Below, piece by piece: positions 3,090 to 13,068 of a DNA stretch of 36,740 bases (the first letter of the stretch is position 1; every line of letters begins with the position of its first letter). Location: the NCBI GenBank assembly GCA_020847415.1, contig JADLBZ010000291.1:1-36740 (forward strand), read 5' to 3'. The notes below the pieces were generated by a model, which ran no database searches, was not told the origin of the DNA, and saw only the letters and a program-made list of their open reading frames with translations. A program made the position numbers and the translations under genes. The DNA is from Planctomycetota bacterium (lineage in GTDB: Bacteria; Planctomycetota; UBA8742; UBA2392).

Positions 3090-4529
3090 ATGGCCACCCA
3101 CACCTTTGATGTCTGTGTCATCGGCAGCGGCCCCGGCGGCTATGTGGCTGCCATCCGCGCGGCCCAGCTCGGCCTCAAGACCTGCTGCGTCGAGGACAAG
3201 CACTTCGGCGGCATTTGCCTGAACTGGGGCTGTATCCCCACCAAGGCCCTGCTGAAAAGCGCCGAGGTGTTCCACACCATCCAGCACAAGGCCAAGACCT
3301 TCGGCATCGCCGTCGAGAAGGCCAACGCCGACATGGCGGCCGTGGTCAAACGCAGCCGTGACATCTCGGGCCAGCTCAACAAGGGCATCCAGTTCCTGTT
3401 CAAGAAGCACGGCGTCTCGCAGTTCTCGGGGCGCGGCCGTATTGCCGGCAAGGGCGTGGTCGAGGTGACCGAGCCCAACAACCCCGAGAACAAGCCGGAT
3501 CGCCCCAACAGCCACGGCAAAGTGGTGGAGACCATCAACGCCAAGCACATCATCGTGGCCACCGGGGCGCGCCCCCGGCGCTTCCCCAACATGCCCGTAG
3601 ACGGCAAGCGCATCATCGGCCACCACGAGGCCCTGGTGCTGGCGGAGCGCCCCAAGAAGGTGGTAGTGATCGGCGCCGGCGCCATCGGCGTCGAATTCAG
3701 CTACTACTTCCATGCGTTCGGCGCCGAGGTGACGCTGATCGAGCTCATGGACCGCATCGTGCCCGTGGAGGACGACGACAGCAGCCGCGAGCTGGAGAAG
3801 GCCTACAAGAAGCTGGGCATCAGCGTGCAGACGGAGTCCAAGGTCGAGAACGTCTCGGCCACCGCGTCCGGCGTGAAGGTCGTCTACGAGCGCAAGGGCA
3901 AGAAGACCGAGCTGGAGGTTGACTACTGCCTCGTGGCGGTGGGCATCCAGGGCAACGTGGAGGACCTGGGCCTGGAGGCCGCGGGCGTCAAGGTTGAGCG
4001 CGGTTTCATCCCCGTGGACGGCTACGGCCGCACCAACGTCGCCGGCATCTACGCCATCGGCGACGTGGCGGGCCAGCCGGCCCTGGCCCACAAGGCCAGC
4101 CACGAGGGTCTAGCATGCGTCGAGAAGATCGCCGGGCATGACGTGAAGCCCTTCAGCAAGGACATCATTCCCGGCTGCACCTACAGCCAGCCGCAAGTGG
4201 CCAGCGTGGGCAAGACCGAGCGCGCCCTGAAGGAAGCGGGCATCGAGTACAAGGTGGGCAAGTTCCCGTTCAAGTCGCTGGGCAAGGCCATGGCCATGGG
4301 CGACAACGACGGCTTCGTGAAGCTGCTGTTTGACAAGAAGTACGGGCAGCTCCTGGGTGCGCACATTGTGCATGGCGAAGCCACCGAGCTGATCAGCGAG
4401 CTGGTGCTGGGCATGGACGTGGAGGCGGTCAGCAAGACGCTGATCCATGCCGTGCACCCGCACCCCACGCTCTCGGAGGCGGTGATGGAGGCCGCCGCCC
4501 TGGCCGAGGGCGAGTGCGTGCACATGTAG
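3090..4529 (+). CDS. lpdA: Dihydrolipoamide dehydrogenase (E3)
   Basis: This flavoprotein reoxidises dihydrolipoamide on 2-oxoacid dehydrogenase complexes or the glycine cleavage system and passes electrons to NAD+. The 479 residues are full length. It has an FAD-binding GSGPGG (12-17), the redox disulfide motif GGICLNWGCIPTK (Cys43 and Cys48), an NAD-binding VVIGAGAIGVEF segment, the second FAD motif ending in YAIGDVAG, and a C-terminal dimer domain with HPHPTLSE, supplying catalytic His458 and Glu463. The start is supported by AAGGA seven bases upstream. No E1 or E2 subunit genes are adjacent, so it probably serves complexes encoded elsewhere. Other class I disulfide reductases (mercuric or glutathione reductase) are excluded by the HPT-x-x-E signature and overall similarity. 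Confidence 0.96.
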   Translation: MATHTFDVCVIGSGPGGYVAAIRAAQLGLKTCCVEDKHFGGICLNWGCIPTKALLKSAEVFHTIQHKAKTFGIAVEKANADMAAVVKRSRDISGQLNKGIQFLFKKHGVSQFSGRGRIAGKGVVEVTEPNNPENKPDRPNSHGKVVETINAKHIIVATGARPRRFPNMPVDGKRIIGHHEALVLAERPKKVVVIGAGAIGVEFSYYFHAFGAEVTLIELMDRIVPVEDDDSSRELEKAYKKLGISVQTESKVENVSATASGVKVVYERKGKKTELEVDYCLVAVGIQGNVEDLGLEAAGVKVERGFIPVDGYGRTNVAGIYAIGDVAGQPALAHKASHEGLACVEKIAGHDVKPFSKDIIPGCTYSQPQVASVGKTERALKEAGIEYKVGKFPFKSLGKAMAMGDNDGFVKLLFDKKYGQLLGAHIVHGEATELISELVLGMDVEAVSKTLIHAVHPHPTLSEAVMEAAALAEGECVHM

Positions 4530-4562
4530 CTTGCGCTCCCCATGGAACTGCAGGAGCGCCGG

Positions 4563-4591
4563 TTGACAGTAAACGTCGCTGTGCCCAGACT
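4563..4591 (+). promoter_or_regulatory. Possible promoter of the three-gene island
   Basis: A perfect TTGACA (4563-4568) is followed after 17 bases by a weak CAGACT (4586-4591). It lies in the 95-base gap after lpdA and would drive the island separately. The weak -10 keeps confidence low. Confidence 0.3.
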
Positions 4592-4624
4592 GAAAGCGGC
4601 GGAGAGCGGAAGGTGTGCGACAGC

Positions 4625-5458
4625 ATGGCAAGAGCCAAGCCTAGGAAGACCAACCGCGACTTGCCCGACTACAAGAACCCGCCGGTGGTTGAAGTGGTCT
4701 GCGGTGTCTCGTTTGATCGCCTTCGGAAATTCTTGGTCCACCACGTTGGTCTTCTTTGGTCGCAGCTTGCTCAAGACTTCACTGAAATTGGCGAGCAACC
4801 AAATCTGCCCCGCATCTTCGAGGGGTTCGATAATGAACCGCGCGTCAACGTCGAGTTGATGCAAATTCAGGATTGGCCCCGCGCACAGTTCGCTCAGCCA
4901 AACGGCGGCGACATCATCCAGGTTCAGCGCGACCGGTTCCTGTACAACTGGCGCAAGCGAGCTAGCGAGGCCTACCCTCGCTACGAAGCCGTCTTCGGCC
5001 GCTTCTGGGCAAAGCTCAATCAGTTCAGCGCACTCATGGACCAGGCACAGATTGGGCCTGTGGCTCCTGTTCAGTTTGAACTGACCTACCTGAATCAAAT
5101 CCTTGAGGGTGAGGGGTGGACGGACTGGGGGCAAATCGGGCGCATGTTCGTGGATGCGCCGTCAGTCAAGGATGGAGCGAAGCTGCTGTATAGCACCCAC
5201 GGTATCAACTGGCTTTCTACCTACGATTTGCCGGAAAAAAGCGGGCGTCTCTATGCCCACCTGCGGTCTGCCACTCGCACCTTGGACAAGAAACCTCTAC
5301 TTTCATTGGAGATGACCGTAAGAGGAATGCCGAAAGACACTTCGGACGCCACCGTGAAGGAGTGGTTCGATATCGCCCATAAGTGGATTGTTCAGGGGTT
5401 TTACGAACTAACTTCGGATAAGATGCAAACGGGCGTGTGGAAGAGGGTGAACCCATGA
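4625..5458 (+). CDS. TIGR04255 family protein
   Basis: This is a 277-residue soluble protein whose beginning, with NPPVVEVVCGVSF near residues 19-31, matches the hallmark start of the sporadically distributed TIGR04255 family. The middle has FELTYLNQI (a conserved QFELTYLN-type segment), and the end resembles that family's long beta-rich tail (KPLLSLEMTVRG, then WFDIAHKWIVQGFYELTS). No function is established for the family, and I see no catalytic motif, signal peptide or membrane segment. The ATG at 4625 follows a GGAAGG about 11 bases upstream; an earlier in-frame start at 4514 lies inside lpdA. It is the first gene of a three-gene set, its stop overlapping the next start as ATGA. G+C is visibly lower than in lpdA (4741-4800: 31 of 60; 4021-4080: 45 of 60), which suggests acquisition by transfer. 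Confidence 0.7.
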   Translation: MARAKPRKTNRDLPDYKNPPVVEVVCGVSFDRLRKFLVHHVGLLWSQLAQDFTEIGEQPNLPRIFEGFDNEPRVNVELMQIQDWPRAQFAQPNGGDIIQVQRDRFLYNWRKRASEAYPRYEAVFGRFWAKLNQFSALMDQAQIGPVAPVQFELTYLNQILEGEGWTDWGQIGRMFVDAPSVKDGAKLLYSTHGINWLSTYDLPEKSGRLYAHLRSATRTLDKKPLLSLEMTVRGMPKDTSDATVKEWFDIAHKWIVQGFYELTSDKMQTGVWKRVNP

Positions 5459-6078
5459 ACCCTGCCACCAACGTAATTGAAAGACCGAGAAATCGGCTTG
5501 CCGGTTCGGCGGGGTACTATTTTGGCACCGCCGACGATTTCGACGATGTCAGTGCGACGCAAGTGGTCAAGCACGCCAATGGCGGACTAAGCCTGTCGCG
5601 CGCATCCTCGACAGTTGCAACTCCTTCCGGTCAGTACGTGTTCGTGCGTGCGATAACCACCGACTTGATGAAGAAGTTTCAGGAGGGCGCGCAAATCATC
5701 CTGCGCGTGTTTGCCAACGAAGGCCGCCTGTCAACCCAAGCCGCAGACGCGCTTGAACAGGCGGTGAGGCATGGCGACGACTGGAAGGCTGTCCCCAACG
5801 CAAAGGCTCAAGCAAATGCTCGGCGCTTGCTTTCGGCAACGGAAGCGAAGGGCTTGGCGGCCGTGCGAATCGCCCGCGCCCAGGACCACGGCATCGGCAT
5901 CACGTTCGCTCAGCGCGACCGTCGCGCATACGTCGAGTGTTTGAACGATGGGACCATGTGGGCAAGCCTGCTAGGCGCTGCGCCGCTACCAACCGTCTTC
6001 GAGTTAGAGGAGAATGGCGTTGACTTCGCTACTTTCACCAGGCGAATCCGAGCGCACCTATTCCCCCGAACTCTCTGA
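5455..6078 (+). CDS. Hypothetical protein, second gene of the TIGR04255 island
   Basis: I do not recognise this 207-residue soluble protein. It starts at an ATG overlapping the previous stop by four bases (ATGA), with AGAGGG about 8 bases upstream; an in-frame start at 5437 is less well placed. The N-terminal part has a degenerate acidic patch (FGTADDFDDVSA). The middle is probably helical and alanine-rich (about residues 85-140). The end has a beta-type stretch with GIGITFAQRDRRAYVEC. There is no signal peptide, membrane helix or recognised catalytic motif. The end overlaps the next gene by 65 bases. The arrangement makes it a likely partner of the TIGR04255 protein. Confidence 0.7.
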   Translation: MNPATNVIERPRNRLAGSAGYYFGTADDFDDVSATQVVKHANGGLSLSRASSTVATPSGQYVFVRAITTDLMKKFQEGAQIILRVFANEGRLSTQAADALEQAVRHGDDWKAVPNAKAQANARRLLSATEAKGLAAVRIARAQDHGIGITFAQRDRRAYVECLNDGTMWASLLGAAPLPTVFELEENGVDFATFTRRIRAHLFPRTL

Positions 6079-6631
6079 CGCTGATTTCATCCTCAGTGCC
6101 ATTGAACGTCTGAAGCATCGAAACCGGACCATCAACCCGAACTTCGACGCCGAAGAGTGGCTGTTTGCGGCCTTCAAGCGGTTTGGCGAACAAGGTGGAG
6201 GTCGCATTGGCGTGTACATGGATGACCTTACGTACCAAGGGACGAGTTACCCGTATCCTGGATCAGATGGCATGTCCCTGAATCGCGCCAAATTCAGCTT
6301 GGCTTCAGATGTTCTCGTTTCAACGGCAAGTGACGTTCTGCGATGTGTGGCAGGCATACAGGCCCAGGATCTGCCGAAGGACTTCAGGCCGCTCTCGGAT
6401 CCCACCGGCAGTGTGTGGTCGCTGAAGCCAAAGCACAAACCCACGGCGATGACCAAACGCAAGAAGGACGGCGTTGAGCTTCCGGAGAACTTTGCCCATA
6501 GCATCCTGATGCACCATGTTGACGATAGGGAGAAGCCGGGAAGCAAAGTAAAGAACAAAGAGGTGTTGCGGACCTTCAAGACCGCCTTGGCGCACGCATT
6601 CATCCCCATCGTTCAGAAAGCGGCTACATAG
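6014..6631 (+). CDS. Hypothetical protein, third gene of the TIGR04255 island
   Basis: This is an unrecognised 205-residue soluble protein. The ATG is preceded by AGAGGAG, though with only 3 bases after the GAGG core. It begins 65 bases before the end of the previous gene in another frame, which implies coupled translation. The first half contains LSDADFILSAIERLKHRN, a helical stretch that could be a binding surface; the second half has a lysine-rich segment (KPKHKPTAMTKRKKDG) that could contact nucleic acid, although this is speculation. No enzyme motif, signal peptide or membrane segment is visible. A nested inverted repeat follows 16 bases after the stop and may end the transcript. Confidence 0.65.
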   Translation: MALTSLLSPGESERTYSPELSDADFILSAIERLKHRNRTINPNFDAEEWLFAAFKRFGEQGGGRIGVYMDDLTYQGTSYPYPGSDGMSLNRAKFSLASDVLVSTASDVLRCVAGIQAQDLPKDFRPLSDPTGSVWSLKPKHKPTAMTKRKKDGVELPENFAHSILMHHVDDREKPGSKVKNKEVLRTFKTALAHAFIPIVQKAAT

Positions 6632-6647
6632 AACACAGACAGGCGCT

Positions 6648-6688
6648 AACGCGGAGAGGTCGACAAACGATTCGACCCTTTGGGCGTT
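6648..6688 (+). terminator. Nested inverted repeat after the TIGR04255 island
   Basis: An inner stem GGTCGA (6658-6663) pairs with TCGACC (6672-6677) around an 8-base loop. An outer stem AACGC (6648-6652) pairs with GCGTT (6684-6688). A short TTT follows the inner stem. It is most simply a weak terminator for the island; it does not match integron attC core sites. Confidence 0.35.
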
Positions 6689-6837
6689 CGTCAGTAGTCT
6701 CGCCAGTCACATGCCCGCCGCTTTTGCTGGTGTGCTCCAACCTCGGCGGCGGTTTGTAGGCTTCGCCCCGGCAGGCCGGGCGCTATCATCCTGCCCGGAG
6801 GCCCGCTATCGCCCGCGCACTGCACAACCGCGCCCTG

Positions 6838-7464
6838 TTGCAGCACTCGGCCCTGGACCGCATCGAGCAGGCGGTCGCCGCCGCCGAGCGCAACACTTCG
6901 TGCGAGTACATCGTCATCCTGGCGCCGGCCTCCAGCCGTTACGAAGGCCGGGCGCTGAAGGCCGCCGCTGCTGTGGGCGGCCTCGTTTTCGTGGCACAGG
7001 ACCTGTTGCACTGGCTGTGGCTGGGTGCTCTGGCCGACGGGCTGTTCTTGCTGATTGAGGCGCTGGTGGTGGCGGCGCTGGCGTTGCTGGCGCTGCGGCG
7101 CGTGCCGGCATTGCGGCGCATGCTGCTGCCCCGCTGGCTGATGCGCGACGCCGTGGACATGACCTCCGCTGCCTTGTTCACCAAGGAGAACGTCAGCCTC
7201 ACCCGCGAGCGCAACGGCTGCCTGTTGTTTGTAAGCGTGCTGGAGGGCGAGGCGCGCGTGATGCCCGATATCGGCATGGAGCGCGCCCTGGACGGCGCCC
7301 GGCTGGGCGAGATCCGCGCCGGGCTGGCCAACGCCGCCGGAGACCCCGTGGAGGCCCTCTGCGCCGCCCTGCAGCGCTTGGGCGAGTGTTGTCGCGAGAA
7401 GTTTCCCCGTGCCGCAGATGACGTGAACGAGCTGCCTGACCGTCCCCAGATCTGGTTGCCCTGA
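6838..7464 (+). CDS. TPM-domain membrane protein
   Basis: This membrane protein is of the TPM (PF04536) family, related to the TPM part of YgcG-like proteins; TPM domains have been linked to photosystem repair in plants, and bacterial roles are unsettled. The first part has SALDRIEQAVAAAERNTSCEY, a typical TPM beginning. The domain is split by a hydrophobic stretch (about residues 42-88, two membrane helices) before the second half with FTKENVSLTRERNG and a closing GLANAAGDPVEALCAALQRLGE. The start is uncertain. No ATG or GTG follows the in-frame stop at 6757-6759. The listed TTG has no ribosome site, whereas a good GGAGG (6797-6801) stands 6 bases before an ATC at 6808, with CTG codons at 6820 and 6835. 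The next gene starts 4 bases later, so the two are co-expressed. Confidence 0.8.
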   Translation: MQHSALDRIEQAVAAAERNTSCEYIVILAPASSRYEGRALKAAAAVGGLVFVAQDLLHWLWLGALADGLFLLIEALVVAALALLALRRVPALRRMLLPRWLMRDAVDMTSAALFTKENVSLTRERNGCLLFVSVLEGEARVMPDIGMERALDGARLGEIRAGLANAAGDPVEALCAALQRLGECCREKFPRAADDVNELPDRPQIWLP

Positions 7465-9085: not shown

Positions 9086-10765
9086 ATGAAAAAGGTGCGT
9101 GGTGCGGCCCTTTCAGCCGCAGTTGGTGCCGTCGTGGTTGCCGGGCTCGGCATAGCGTCTGTGCGCGGCCCCATCGAGGCGCAGGAAGCGCCTGCTCAGG
9201 CAGCCAGAAAACCCATCCAGATTGACCTTTCGCAGAGCGCGCAGAAAGTGCGCCTGAATCAGGAAGTGAGTGCCGCCAAGGGCGCGACGGCGGCGCGCTT
9301 TCCCACGGTGCACGGCGCCGGGGACGGTTGGGCGCTGCGCGTGGCGGGCAACAATCCGCGCAGCCCGGCAGCCCAGGACGGCGTAGTCGTAGTGGGTACA
9401 GGCAGCGGCAACACGGTGTTTGGCGTGGAAGTGGAGACCGGCCTGGTGCGCTGGTCGGCGGTGTCGAAGGATTCCGGCATTTCCAGCGTGATCGTGGCCG
9501 GCGACTCAGCCTACTTCACCACCTGGAGCTGCACCCTGGAGCGCGTGCGCGTCTCGGACGGGCACCACGAGTTCAGCAAGTGGCTGGCCAGCACGGTGGA
9601 GTGCGCGCCCGACGCCAACGAGAGCCGGGTGGTGTGCTCGTACCAGGGCAATGTCTCGGACCATGACCTGAATACCGGCGCCCAGGGCTGGAAGAGCGAA
9701 GCCAAAGAGGGCGTGGTCACGGCGCCGGTAATCTGCGGCGACGCGGTGTACACGGTAAGCCCGGCCGGCAGCCTGACTTCGTTTGCGCTGGAAGGCGGCA
9801 AGAAGCGCTGGTCGCGCAACCTTGGTGCCGTGGCGGCCCCGGTGGCCACGCCGCAGGGCCTGCTGGTGGCGGCCTATCACGACGGGTCGGCGGAAACCGC
9901 CCCGGCCGAATCCCAGAAACCAGCCAAGAACCCGGACCGCGAAACCGTGGTGACCACTGGCCAGATCGGCCGCACCTTGCTGGCCCGCGGTGACCGCCGC
10001 GTGGCCCTGCTGACGGGCGGCGAGGCCGCACCCAAGGGCTCCGAGGCATACGCGCTCAACGGCCCGGCCGGGTCCACGGGGCTGGATTTCCAGGGCATGC
10101 GCCCGGGCTTTGACGGCGGCGTGGTTTACCTGGCCGGCCGGGGTGCATTGAGCGCTTCGCTGCTGGCCACCGGCAACGAACTCTGGTCGGTGCAGCTCTC
10201 GGACAGCAAAGTTGAGCTGACCACCCCGGTGGTTTCAGGCGGCATGCTGTTCACCGCGGGCAGCGACGGCACCGTGCTGGCGCTGGAGGCAACCTCGGGC
10301 GCGCTGGTGTGGGCCTACCAGTTTGAGGGCGTAGCCTTCGCGGCCAAGCCCTGCGTGGAGAAGGGCCGCCTGCTGTTGACCACCAACCGCGGCATGCTGC
10401 TGTGCCTTCCCACGGGCGCCCAGGATACGGGCGAGGCCCCACCGCTGGGCGGCGGCAGCGGCGCAGCCCCAGCCAAGAACGAGCCCGGCATGCCCGGCGT
10501 CTTCCGCGGCGTGCGCGATGCCTTTGAGAAGAACCGGACACCAGTGCCTGCACCTTCGCGCCTGCCTGAGAACGTGACCCCTGCCCGCGGGCCGGAGACA
10601 CCCGCGGTGGAAGGCCCGGACACCGATGCCGGCGCTGAGGGCCCCGCCTCTGAGAGCAAGGACGAACCGTCCAAGGGTGAGTGGGAACGCCGGGAGGAAC
10701 GGCGAGAAGCCAAGGCCAGGTCCGAAGGCAAGGACTACGAGCGAAAACCGTTCAAGAGGAACTGA
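9086..10765 (+). CDS. Exported PQQ-like beta-propeller repeat protein
   Basis: This is a 559-residue exported protein. A signal peptide (about 1-33) is followed by several propeller blades of the PQQ-like type, recognised by repeating units such as GVEVETGLVRWSA, DLNTGAQGWKSEA, LATGNELWSVQ and LEATSGALVWAYQ, covering about residues 75-450. The C-terminal 110 residues are a low-complexity Pro/Glu/Arg/Lys tail, highly charged at the end (EERREAKARSEGKDYERK). Related proteins act as scaffolds, for example BamB, or bind PQQ in dehydrogenases; here no dehydrogenase active site is visible, so a scaffold or binding role is more likely. The charged tail is unusual and may bind membrane, cell wall or nucleic acid. 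The gene has its own promoter-like element and is followed by a strong terminator-like hairpin. Confidence 0.85.
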   Translation: MKKVRGAALSAAVGAVVVAGLGIASVRGPIEAQEAPAQAARKPIQIDLSQSAQKVRLNQEVSAAKGATAARFPTVHGAGDGWALRVAGNNPRSPAAQDGVVVVGTGSGNTVFGVEVETGLVRWSAVSKDSGISSVIVAGDSAYFTTWSCTLERVRVSDGHHEFSKWLASTVECAPDANESRVVCSYQGNVSDHDLNTGAQGWKSEAKEGVVTAPVICGDAVYTVSPAGSLTSFALEGGKKRWSRNLGAVAAPVATPQGLLVAAYHDGSAETAPAESQKPAKNPDRETVVTTGQIGRTLLARGDRRVALLTGGEAAPKGSEAYALNGPAGSTGLDFQGMRPGFDGGVVYLAGRGALSASLLATGNELWSVQLSDSKVELTTPVVSGGMLFTAGSDGTVLALEATSGALVWAYQFEGVAFAAKPCVEKGRLLLTTNRGMLLCLPTGAQDTGEAPPLGGGSGAAPAKNEPGMPGVFRGVRDAFEKNRTPVPAPSRLPENVTPARGPETPAVEGPDTDAGAEGPASESKDEPSKGEWERREERREAKARSEGKDYERKPFKRN

Positions 10766-10778
10766 TGGCTGCAACAGC

Positions 10779-10812
10779 GCGCGACCCGGCAATGCCGGGT
10801 CGCGTTGCTTTT
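10779..10812 (+). terminator. Rho-independent terminator after the propeller gene
   Basis: A perfect stem (GCGACCCGGCA at 10781-10791 with its complement at 10793-10803, extended by flanking pairs) is followed by TTGCTTTT. The loop closes on very few bases, so the top pairs will open. It ends 34 bases before the next ATG. Confidence 0.7.
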
Positions 10813-10845
10813 GCGCGGGCAGGGGCCCTGTGCTACAAACAGGGC

Positions 10846-13068
10846 ATGGCCAAAGCACCCACACCGGGACAGCCCAACGAGGGCGAGGTCTTCCGCGAGG
10901 TCGCCACGCGCAAGCTCGAGGCCGAGCGCATCCGCGTGATGCAACTCGGGCAGGAGAACGAGCAACTGCGGGCCATGGCCGCTGACCTGCAGAAGAAGAT
11001 AAGCCTGGCCAACTCGCGCGCGGCCGAGCTGGAGCGGCAGCTCAAGCAGAGCGCCGGCGACGCCCGCCGCGACCAGGCCGAGGAGTTGCAGGCCCAGCGT
11101 GAGCTGCATGAGCGCCACCTGGCCGAGGTAAAGGCCGCGCACTTGAAAGAACTCGACCGCCTCTCGGGCCGCATCGAGCGCACGACCGCAAAGTCCGAGG
11201 ACGCACTGGGCTCGGCCCAGGCTCGGCTCTCTGCCCTGCAGGATGCCCTGGACGCCGAGAAGCAGGCCCGCACCGAGGCCGAGGCGCGCCTGCGCGCCCT
11301 GGATACAGCCGCGCGGCGTGTAGGTCCGCGCGCCGGCCAGGTCACGGGCTTTGAAACCGATTCGCCCGAAGACCTGCTGAGGGTGCTTTCTGAGCTGGAC
11401 GCCGAGCGTCCCCTGAAGCTGCTGCGCGGGGCGGTGCGCGAACTTCGCTCGGCCGCCTCCAATGTGGAGCGCGCCTTCGTGAAGGCCGTCAAGGGCGACG
11501 AAGGCAAGGCCGAGCTGCACGACAGCGCCCAGAAACTGCAGGACGCCCGCGCCGTGCCGGACACCCAGGAGCTGCCGCCGGCACCTGCCATGCTGATGGA
11601 AGAAGCCTTCACCTTTGTGGCCGACGAAGTGCAGGAGCGCATCAAGGGCCGCCACTACATCGCCCTGGTGGGCGCCATGGCCACCGAGCTGGCCCGCGTG
11701 CTGCGCGGCGACCGCGAGGACCTGTCGCGGCTGCAGCGCCTGGCCGATATCGCCGAGGGCACCGAGCTGGCCACGGCCGGCCGCCTGCTGCTGAAGGGCG
11801 CCACCAGCCACCAGCAGGAAATTGCCGCCGCCCGCCTGGCCGCCGAAGAACTGAAGCAGATGCGCGAAGACGCCCGCGAGCAGAAGGGCAAGGTCAAGAA
11901 GCTGTACGCGGTGGCGGAAACCGGCATGGCCGGCGAATGGGCCACCGCAGCCGTGCAGTCCATGGCCGCGCTGAAGCCGCTGCCTGCCCCGGACGCAGAG
12001 GCCATGCGCCGCCCCGTTTACCACCATGTGGTCGAGTGCGGCCGCCTGGTGCAGGAGCGCATTGACTCGGCCATGAACCTGGGGGCGTCTGCCGAGGCCG
12101 CCGTGCGAGAGGCCGACGAGGCCTTTGCCCAGCTTGAAGCCCTTTCCGACGGCATGGGCGAGCTGCTGCTGGCTGCCCGCCGCGAGTTGATGAGCAAGGT
12201 GGCCGGCGAACAGGACGCCCGCCTGAAGCTGCAGGCCGCCCGCAACACCCTGGCTGAAGCCGGCAAGCGCGGCCAGCGCGCCGCCGCGCTGTTTGACCGC
12301 CAGCTTAAGCACCTGGACGCCGTGATGGGCCAATGGAAGGCCACCTACAAGCTCTATGGCAGCCTCTCGCGCGACGTCGCCCGCGTCGAGAGCAGCATCG
12401 AGGGCCAGATGCTGGACCTGAACCAGCCCCTGGAAACCGACGAGGGCCGGCGGCTGTACCAGATTATTCATGACTTGTCCGAGCACCTGCCCGAGCTGCG
12501 CGCCCTGGACGTGATGCGCCAGCGGCTCTTCCTGCACCTGGAGAACCCCAAGCAACGGCCCTTTGAACTGAAGCAGGTGCGCGAGGCGGCGGGCCGCGTG
12601 CTGCGCGCCCTGGGCGAGCCCGACCCCCATGACACCAACGCCAACTACCAGCACGGCCTGGCGCGCCTCTACGACGCCTGGGCCTGCCTGGAGGAAGTGC
12701 GGGGCGGCAGCCACAGCCAGCTTGCCGTGGCGGGTGAACAACTGGAGCCCGTGCTGGCCGATGTCATGACCTGGGCCAGCAGCAGCGAGGTGCAGCGCCT
12801 GCCCACCGCCGAGCAGGCCGAGCTGCTGCATACGGCGGCCTATGTGCGGCGCCTGAAGCGCGCCGTGCTGGGCATCCACGACCGCGGACGCACCGGCGCC
12901 AACGCGGCGGGCCTGACGGACCAGTTCGAGCACAGCCTGGACACCATGGAGCTCCCGCCGGACTGGACGGACGTGCTGGAACGCATTGCCACCGGGCATG
13001 CCGGCGAAGACCAGGACCAGGCCCCGCCCACCGAGCGCGAGCCCGCCCCGCCCCGGCCCCGGAAATAG
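10846..13068 (+). CDS. Large helical coiled-coil protein of unknown function
   Basis: This is a 740-residue protein with no signal peptide or membrane helix. Residues about 15-150 are a long coiled coil rich in Glu, Arg, Leu and Ala (ENEQLRAMAADLQKKISLAN and ELERQLKQSAGDARRDQAEE). The rest is mostly helical with few strands, possibly a helical bundle array. I do not recognise a domain. The ATG at 10846 gives a start (MAKAPTPGQPNEGE) downstream of the upstream gene's terminator; an in-frame start at 10681 would lie inside the previous gene and cross the terminator hairpin. Its C-terminus is low-complexity (TEREPAPPRPRK). It could be a cytoskeletal, scaffolding or DNA-organising protein, but the sequence does not decide this. 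Confidence 0.85.
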   Translation: MAKAPTPGQPNEGEVFREVATRKLEAERIRVMQLGQENEQLRAMAADLQKKISLANSRAAELERQLKQSAGDARRDQAEELQAQRELHERHLAEVKAAHLKELDRLSGRIERTTAKSEDALGSAQARLSALQDALDAEKQARTEAEARLRALDTAARRVGPRAGQVTGFETDSPEDLLRVLSELDAERPLKLLRGAVRELRSAASNVERAFVKAVKGDEGKAELHDSAQKLQDARAVPDTQELPPAPAMLMEEAFTFVADEVQERIKGRHYIALVGAMATELARVLRGDREDLSRLQRLADIAEGTELATAGRLLLKGATSHQQEIAAARLAAEELKQMREDAREQKGKVKKLYAVAETGMAGEWATAAVQSMAALKPLPAPDAEAMRRPVYHHVVECGRLVQERIDSAMNLGASAEAAVREADEAFAQLEALSDGMGELLLAARRELMSKVAGEQDARLKLQAARNTLAEAGKRGQRAAALFDRQLKHLDAVMGQWKATYKLYGSLSRDVARVESSIEGQMLDLNQPLETDEGRRLYQIIHDLSEHLPELRALDVMRQRLFLHLENPKQRPFELKQVREAAGRVLRALGEPDPHDTNANYQHGLARLYDAWACLEEVRGGSHSQLAVAGEQLEPVLADVMTWASSSEVQRLPTAEQAELLHTAAYVRRLKRAVLGIHDRGRTGANAAGLTDQFEHSLDTMELPPDWTDVLERIATGHAGEDQDQAPPTEREPAPPRPRK

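Follow-up and report, generated by a model that had tools for sequence, protein, structure and literature searches.

A three-gene block headed by a TIGR04255 protein in a planctomycete as a candidate member of a modular class of conflict cassettes

In the CmdTAC system, an ADP-ribosyltransferase (ART) toxin is held by an antitoxin that is stabilized by a third protein, CmdC; phage is sensed via this third protein, and newly made phage capsid protein sets the toxin free (PMC11618068). Here, we describe a block of three genes (g1, g2 and g3), headed by a member of the TIGR04255 family, in a Planctomycetota bacterium (GenBank assembly GCA_020847415.1, contig JADLBZ010000291.1, positions 1 to 36,740; this whole stretch of 36,740 nucleotides was analyzed and is called the window). 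The block resembles TAC and CmdTAC in consisting of three small, coupled genes, for which we infer the roles. It differs from them in gene order and protein families, and also in that their third protein is SecB-like, whereas Pfam finds no SecB match in g1. The best model that we can offer, by analogy, is a cassette that would function in the manner of a TAC system but does not count as one, since the SecB-family component is missing.

Two further groups of described proteins are close enough for comparison. Type II toxin-antitoxin systems (VapBC, MazEF/PemIK, HicAB, zeta-epsilon, HEPN-MNT) belong here because the last genes of sister operons come from these toxin families. However, TIGR04255 operons always have an extra head gene, their middle genes are mostly not recognized antitoxins, and g3 belongs to none of these toxin families (Pfam, NCBIfam and PADLOC searches found no known toxin family in it). 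The ART superfamily is the other group, as the fold of a g3 relative from the family that we call A3 is nearest to the KptA/Tpt1 branch, with a conserved Arg in strand 1 and a conserved Ser in strand 2. As mapped by secondary structure, A3 proteins would differ in having a His where most ARTs have a Glu, and there is no sequence match to the superfamily, which includes the RES and DarT toxins; as for DarT, its DarG macro-domain antitoxin is absent from the window cassette.

We propose, with a probability of about 0.5, that the block is a self-contained conflict cassette, acquired by horizontal transfer, that would arrest growth when triggered by phage, with g3 as toxin, g2 as antitoxin or adaptor and g1 as regulator. 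The toxin would be a probable ART-fold enzyme, with NAD+ as its substrate for modifying RNA, DNA or a protein, or it might stop growth in some other way. It would be held inactive by g2, and g1 would either stabilize the g2-g3 complex or sense the intruder and free the toxin, so that phage infection would lead to toxin release and growth arrest. Translational coupling would maintain the ratio of the three proteins.

The original prediction, made from the window alone, had described three overlapping, translationally coupled genes of unusual composition in the spacer between lpdA and an unrelated operon, the first of them a member of the sporadic TIGR04255 family, and it was right on all of these points (Table 1). 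The GC content of the block stands against a mean of 0.675 (standard deviation 0.022, minimum 0.633) for the 16 other non-overlapping blocks of equal length in the window. At third codon positions, GC is 0.65-0.68 in the trio and 0.89-0.93 in the flanking lpdA and Tim44-like genes. The next operon downstream begins at 6838. No sigma-70-type promoter was found in the spacer upstream of g1, and no convincing transposon-like terminal repeats flank the cassette.

Table 1. The three-gene block and its surroundings in the window
Feature	Position	Strand	Size	Description
g1	4625-5458	+	277 aa	ATG start; TIGR04255 family protein; head gene
g2	5455-6078	+	207 aa	ATGA overlap with g1 stop; middle gene; divergent A2 member (W-D-x-Y ... 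DG ... W)
g3	6014-6631	+	205 aa	ATG directly behind GAGGAGA; 65-nt overlap with g2; last gene; divergent A3 member
Spacer	4530-4624		95 nt	From lpdA stop to g1
Low-GC block	4625-6631			Same extent as the three genes; GC 0.566

Among 16 genomes of the same family (source genome included), g3 is present in two. The second genome belongs to another genus and carries an intact trio with the same order and the same overlaps (L003/L014; identities of 55, 41 and 54% for g1, g2 and g3), and because of this recurrence the arrangement cannot be put down to chance. The trio sits elsewhere in that genome, behind two genes that we read as encoding a methyltransferase of DUF1156 type and an ATPase of DUF499 type. 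DUF499 systems have been described as BREX-related defence systems (PMC12839542). Reading by eye also placed a DUF499-like ATPase behind a HicA-like TIGR04255 cassette (L074), while the one in L014 precedes the trio. Apart from the second planctomycete, no close relative of g3 was found among the 392 genomes of the phylum or in GTDB and IMG/VR. The cassette stands behind lpdA in none of the 15 other family genomes, so either it arrived at lpdA recently, or there is a rearrangement point at this place. In most of these 15 relatives, a gene read as lipB comes next after lpdA or lies close behind it, and the others have different genes there. Compared with L140-L154, lipB is not there in the window (4529-6838), which may mark a rearrangement breakpoint.

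The wider family supplies the comparative evidence. TIGR04255 was found in 65 of 392 Planctomycetota genomes, and our comparison set comprises 82 TIGR04255 loci with their flanks, the window included (5295 open reading frames in total). The TIGR04255 gene is nearly always the first gene of a short operon in these 82 loci, and the middle and last genes are exchangeable. Operon classes were assigned by profile and by eye. The commonest partner pair, with an A2 middle gene and an A3 last gene, defines class A (35 loci); neither family has a Pfam model. The last gene encodes a PIN protein in 10 loci, a protein with QGD...QxCD motifs in about 14 (class C, with a middle gene that is often a helix-turn-helix (HTH) protein), a DUF7689 protein in five (class B), a HicA-like protein in three (sub-threshold matches), and PemK/MazF and a metallo-beta-lactamase in one each; 13 loci are unclassified or have a solitary TIGR04255 gene. 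Of the 38 last genes that were scanned with Pfam, 9 match PIN (best E-value 6e-19); Pfam also detected, elsewhere in last position, PemK (2.2e-13), zeta toxin (3.1e-12), HEPN (4.2e-6) and metallo-beta-lactamase (9.7e-13). The zeta gene lies on a Vibrio plasmid, where it is annotated as such, and the HEPN gene on a Thermus plasmid. The middle genes include HTH proteins, one of them with an Xre-like antitoxin HTH. As sister operons often carry known toxins in last position, g3 is probably the toxin of its own operon, and g2 is proposed to be the antitoxin or adaptor.

Searches of g2 and g3 against Pfam, NCBIfam, PADLOC and PHROG gave nothing of note, Pfam returned only a sub-threshold chance match for the three genes together, and the PADLOC 2.0.0 defence protein models matched none of the three. 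A weak match of g2 to phrog_6269 (E = 0.004), which would have made it Lsr2-like, was set aside. The connection to A2 and A3 comes from profiles. Compared directly, g2 matches A2 with E = 2.8e-4 and g3 matches A3 weakly, with E = 0.04, at control values of 0.15 or worse for unrelated families. Intermediate sequences bridge the gap: with hhalign E-values that refer to single pairwise comparisons, g3 matches L137/L209/L214 with E = 7.1e-10 over 138 columns, and g2 matches L209/L214 with E = 4.7e-9. With these bridges included, g2 reaches A2 with E = 5e-14 and g3 reaches A3 with E = 5e-8; control values are 0.26 or worse, and for the g2 comparisons 0.38 or worse. The intermediates L209/L214 thus make the membership of g3 in A3 convincing. 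Judged by profile similarity, by position (g2 directly behind the head gene, g3 last) and, for g3, by the alignment of S88 and H162, we regard g2 and g3 as divergent members of A2 and A3.

This gives substance to the suspicion that the partners belong with TIGR04255. The partner families lie directly behind TIGR04255 in 35 of the 82 loci, so the trio is not a private assembly of the window as it would have been had they never co-occurred elsewhere, and all 30 A2 sequence matches among the open reading frames of the compared loci directly follow a TIGR04255 gene. A whole-genome search for A2 gave 40 places, and by our count 25 of these coincide with a TIGR04255 match. The co-occurrence is thus wide, but it is not exclusive, as the pair also stands behind other head genes: a protein of about 125 amino acids in L209 and L214 (weakly DUF3467-like in L214, below threshold), a different protein with an LNRxxxW stretch in L205 and on the phage contig L160 (L160:2018-3871), and a fusion in L217. 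Since the pair occurs behind several different heads, A2-A3 looks like the core, with the head gene as an exchangeable control part. The alternative head of L160 and L205 was considered as a further TIGR04255 protein and is not detectably related.

For g1 itself, the assignment to the family is clear. It matches NCBIfam TIGR04255 ('sporadTIGR04255') with 53.6 bits (E = 2.7e-14), above the curated cut-off of 30, over profile positions 2-248 of 252, and the window-like subgroup matches central family members with an hhalign E-value of 2.5e-23. To our knowledge, no function has been assigned to this family. A literature search for TIGR04255 and DUF7689 by name gave no match, with subscription papers and preprints outside its coverage and an earlier account under other names possible. 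Because TIGR04255 is the constant part across the operons, we infer a regulatory role, and propose that g1 is a shared regulator or sensor, or a partner that stabilizes the antitoxin. Structure prediction had been recommended in the original prediction for all three proteins. The AlphaFold model of g1 is of moderate quality (predicted local distance difference test, pLDDT, 71.5; predicted template modelling score, pTM, 0.77) and consists of two halves, both rich in strands and both closed by a long helix. A fold search of the PDB gave no significant match to it, SecB is not among the 50 best PDB matches listed, and TIGR04255 profiles found no relative among PDB sequences. An internal duplication, suspected from the model, is not seen in the sequence.

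For the last gene, the model of an A3 relative of g3 (L133), built from seven sequences, has a pLDDT of 90.1 and a pTM of 0.84. The five best matches to this model in the PDB are, in order, 1wfx, 9ldc, 8tg6, 9ld6 and 1s21, with E-values from 0.14 to 0.96 (first match: probability 0.87, template modelling (TM) score 0.48). The first four are KptA/Tpt1 2'-phosphotransferases and 1s21 is AvrPphF ORF2, all with the ART fold. As five of the five best matches have one fold, we read A3 as a probable ART-fold family, and g3 is probably an ART-fold enzyme. A comparison of the same model with a viral structure library gave nothing decisive. When 53 A3 proteins, g3 included, are aligned, a single Ser and a single His are conserved throughout (53/53), and the strand-1 Arg is present in 45 of 53, the window subgroup being poorly aligned there. 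In g3, the invariant residues are S88 (DGMSLNR) and H162 (FAHSIL), and R56 is the candidate for the strand-1 Arg, with uncertain alignment. When mapped on the secondary structure, the Arg would lie in the first strand and the Ser in the second, and the His would take the usual place of the ART Glu; known ART triads are R-S-E, H-Y-E or variants. The original prediction saw no catalytic motif; this can now be refined, since in g3 the invariant Ser and His probably make up such a motif. The pattern R...S...H, written as a regular expression, was discarded as evidence, as it matched 12% of control open reading frames.

A somewhat unlikely alternative keeps the conflict cassette, but takes g3 to be a small enzyme of some other kind or a binding protein and TIGR04255 to be the effector. 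It would account for the lack of a significant fold match and of a sequence relative in the PDB, and a common effector would fit the constancy of TIGR04255 across operons. However, it is at odds with the known toxins in the last slot of sister operons, the invariance of Ser and His in the last gene, and the common ART fold of the five best matches. Going beyond the cassette reading that we prefer, we tentatively suggest that TIGR04255 may be the common sensor or regulator in a large and so far undescribed group of modular defence operons into which toxins of many types are plugged, with A3, including g3, as a new ART clade with an Arg-Ser-His active site.

The genomic context speaks to mobility. 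Cassettes of this kind are present on plasmids and on IMG/VR contigs. On a Mycobacterium plasmid, a class A trio lies directly behind the mobF relaxase gene, and by reading of the genes, two cassettes (L138 and L160) lie inside tail/baseplate modules of real phages. The genes on either side of the A2-A3 cassette of L160 were read as the P2-like baseplate genes V and W. A search of INPHARED phages with one TIGR04255 query gave no match. Many TIGR04255 copies are found among housekeeping genes, and some lie beside restriction-modification and other defence genes. Among the top 25 families listed by PADLOC for 120 flanking proteins are AbiEi (2), GajB/NERD-type helicases (2), a type IIG enzyme, Dsr1, PD-Lambda-5_B, HmaB, HmaC and a type II methyltransferase, while the corresponding list for 120 control proteins holds mostly generic kinase matches. 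This is suggestive of more defence genes near cassettes than near controls. The earlier guess of a defence, toxin or conflict system is thus backed by comparative evidence as far as a conflict or toxin type is concerned, with defence as the probable role; in the PADLOC comparison, the neighbours of the cassettes differ only modestly from the controls.

These data bear on two other explanations. A stress-response or addiction module of plasmids and prophages, with no direct anti-phage role, would sit well with carriage on plasmids and phage contigs and with the many copies amid housekeeping genes, but less well with the copies that adjoin restriction-modification and other defence genes, and simple addiction would need less than such regulation by several genes; we consider it distinctly unlikely. 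It is highly improbable that the trio is just an accessory operon for metabolism or housekeeping, with no part in conflict. The housekeeping context in the window and the absence of notable PADLOC, PHROG or Pfam matches for the three proteins would agree with it, but the sporadic distribution, the foreign GC content, the exchangeable toxin partners and the presence on mobile elements would not. Universal conservation, which would have marked the three as housekeeping genes, is not observed: of the 16 family genomes, two have the cassette, and the last gene of other TIGR04255 operons encodes a PIN, PemK, zeta or HEPN toxin.

Several observations weigh against the phage-triggered conflict cassette that we favour. 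The immediate neighbours of the window trio are housekeeping genes and not a defence island, and the PADLOC difference between cassette neighbours and controls is modest. No single Foldseek match of the L133 model is significant (best E = 0.14, TM score 0.48), the structure behind the ART reading is that of a g3 relative and not of g3, and the conserved Glu at the last position of the ART triad is absent from A3, which has His instead. A toxin role of the middle gene is also conceivable. Finally, 15 of the 40 A2 places have no recognized TIGR04255 gene, at least one of them with a missed divergent copy, such as the one in L208 that the model overlooked.

These comparisons provide TIGR04255, a family without a function, with a functional hypothesis. 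The operons would form a platform in which one shared protein is combined with interchangeable toxins; in TAC systems, SecB has this part, and the shared protein here is unrelated to it. In addition, two widespread families without Pfam models are flagged, one of them with a likely enzymatic fold and an invariant Ser and His.

Some minor observations concern the window and the sister operons. Elsewhere in the window, positions 10681-13065 hold an open reading frame of 795 amino acids, for which Pfam gives no match at an E-value of 1e-5. The class B loci (L049, L050, L052, L053 and L062) share a conserved pair, a protein of 142-148 amino acids (HPAYQQIIGMG..WFWALKSITG) and the DUF7689 protein. 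Effector candidates of class C were noted in L055, L057, L061, L078, L079, L048, L065, L076, L086, L088, L092, L110 and L113, among about 14 operons; these last proteins have 180-300 amino acids and the pattern QGD...(T/Q)Q(T/S/A/D)CD(I/L), gave no Pfam match where tested (L061), and are candidates for another undescribed effector family. On the Thermus plasmid, the TIGR04255 operon with the HEPN last gene (L131:3096-8007) lies between a VapC toxin gene and cas6.
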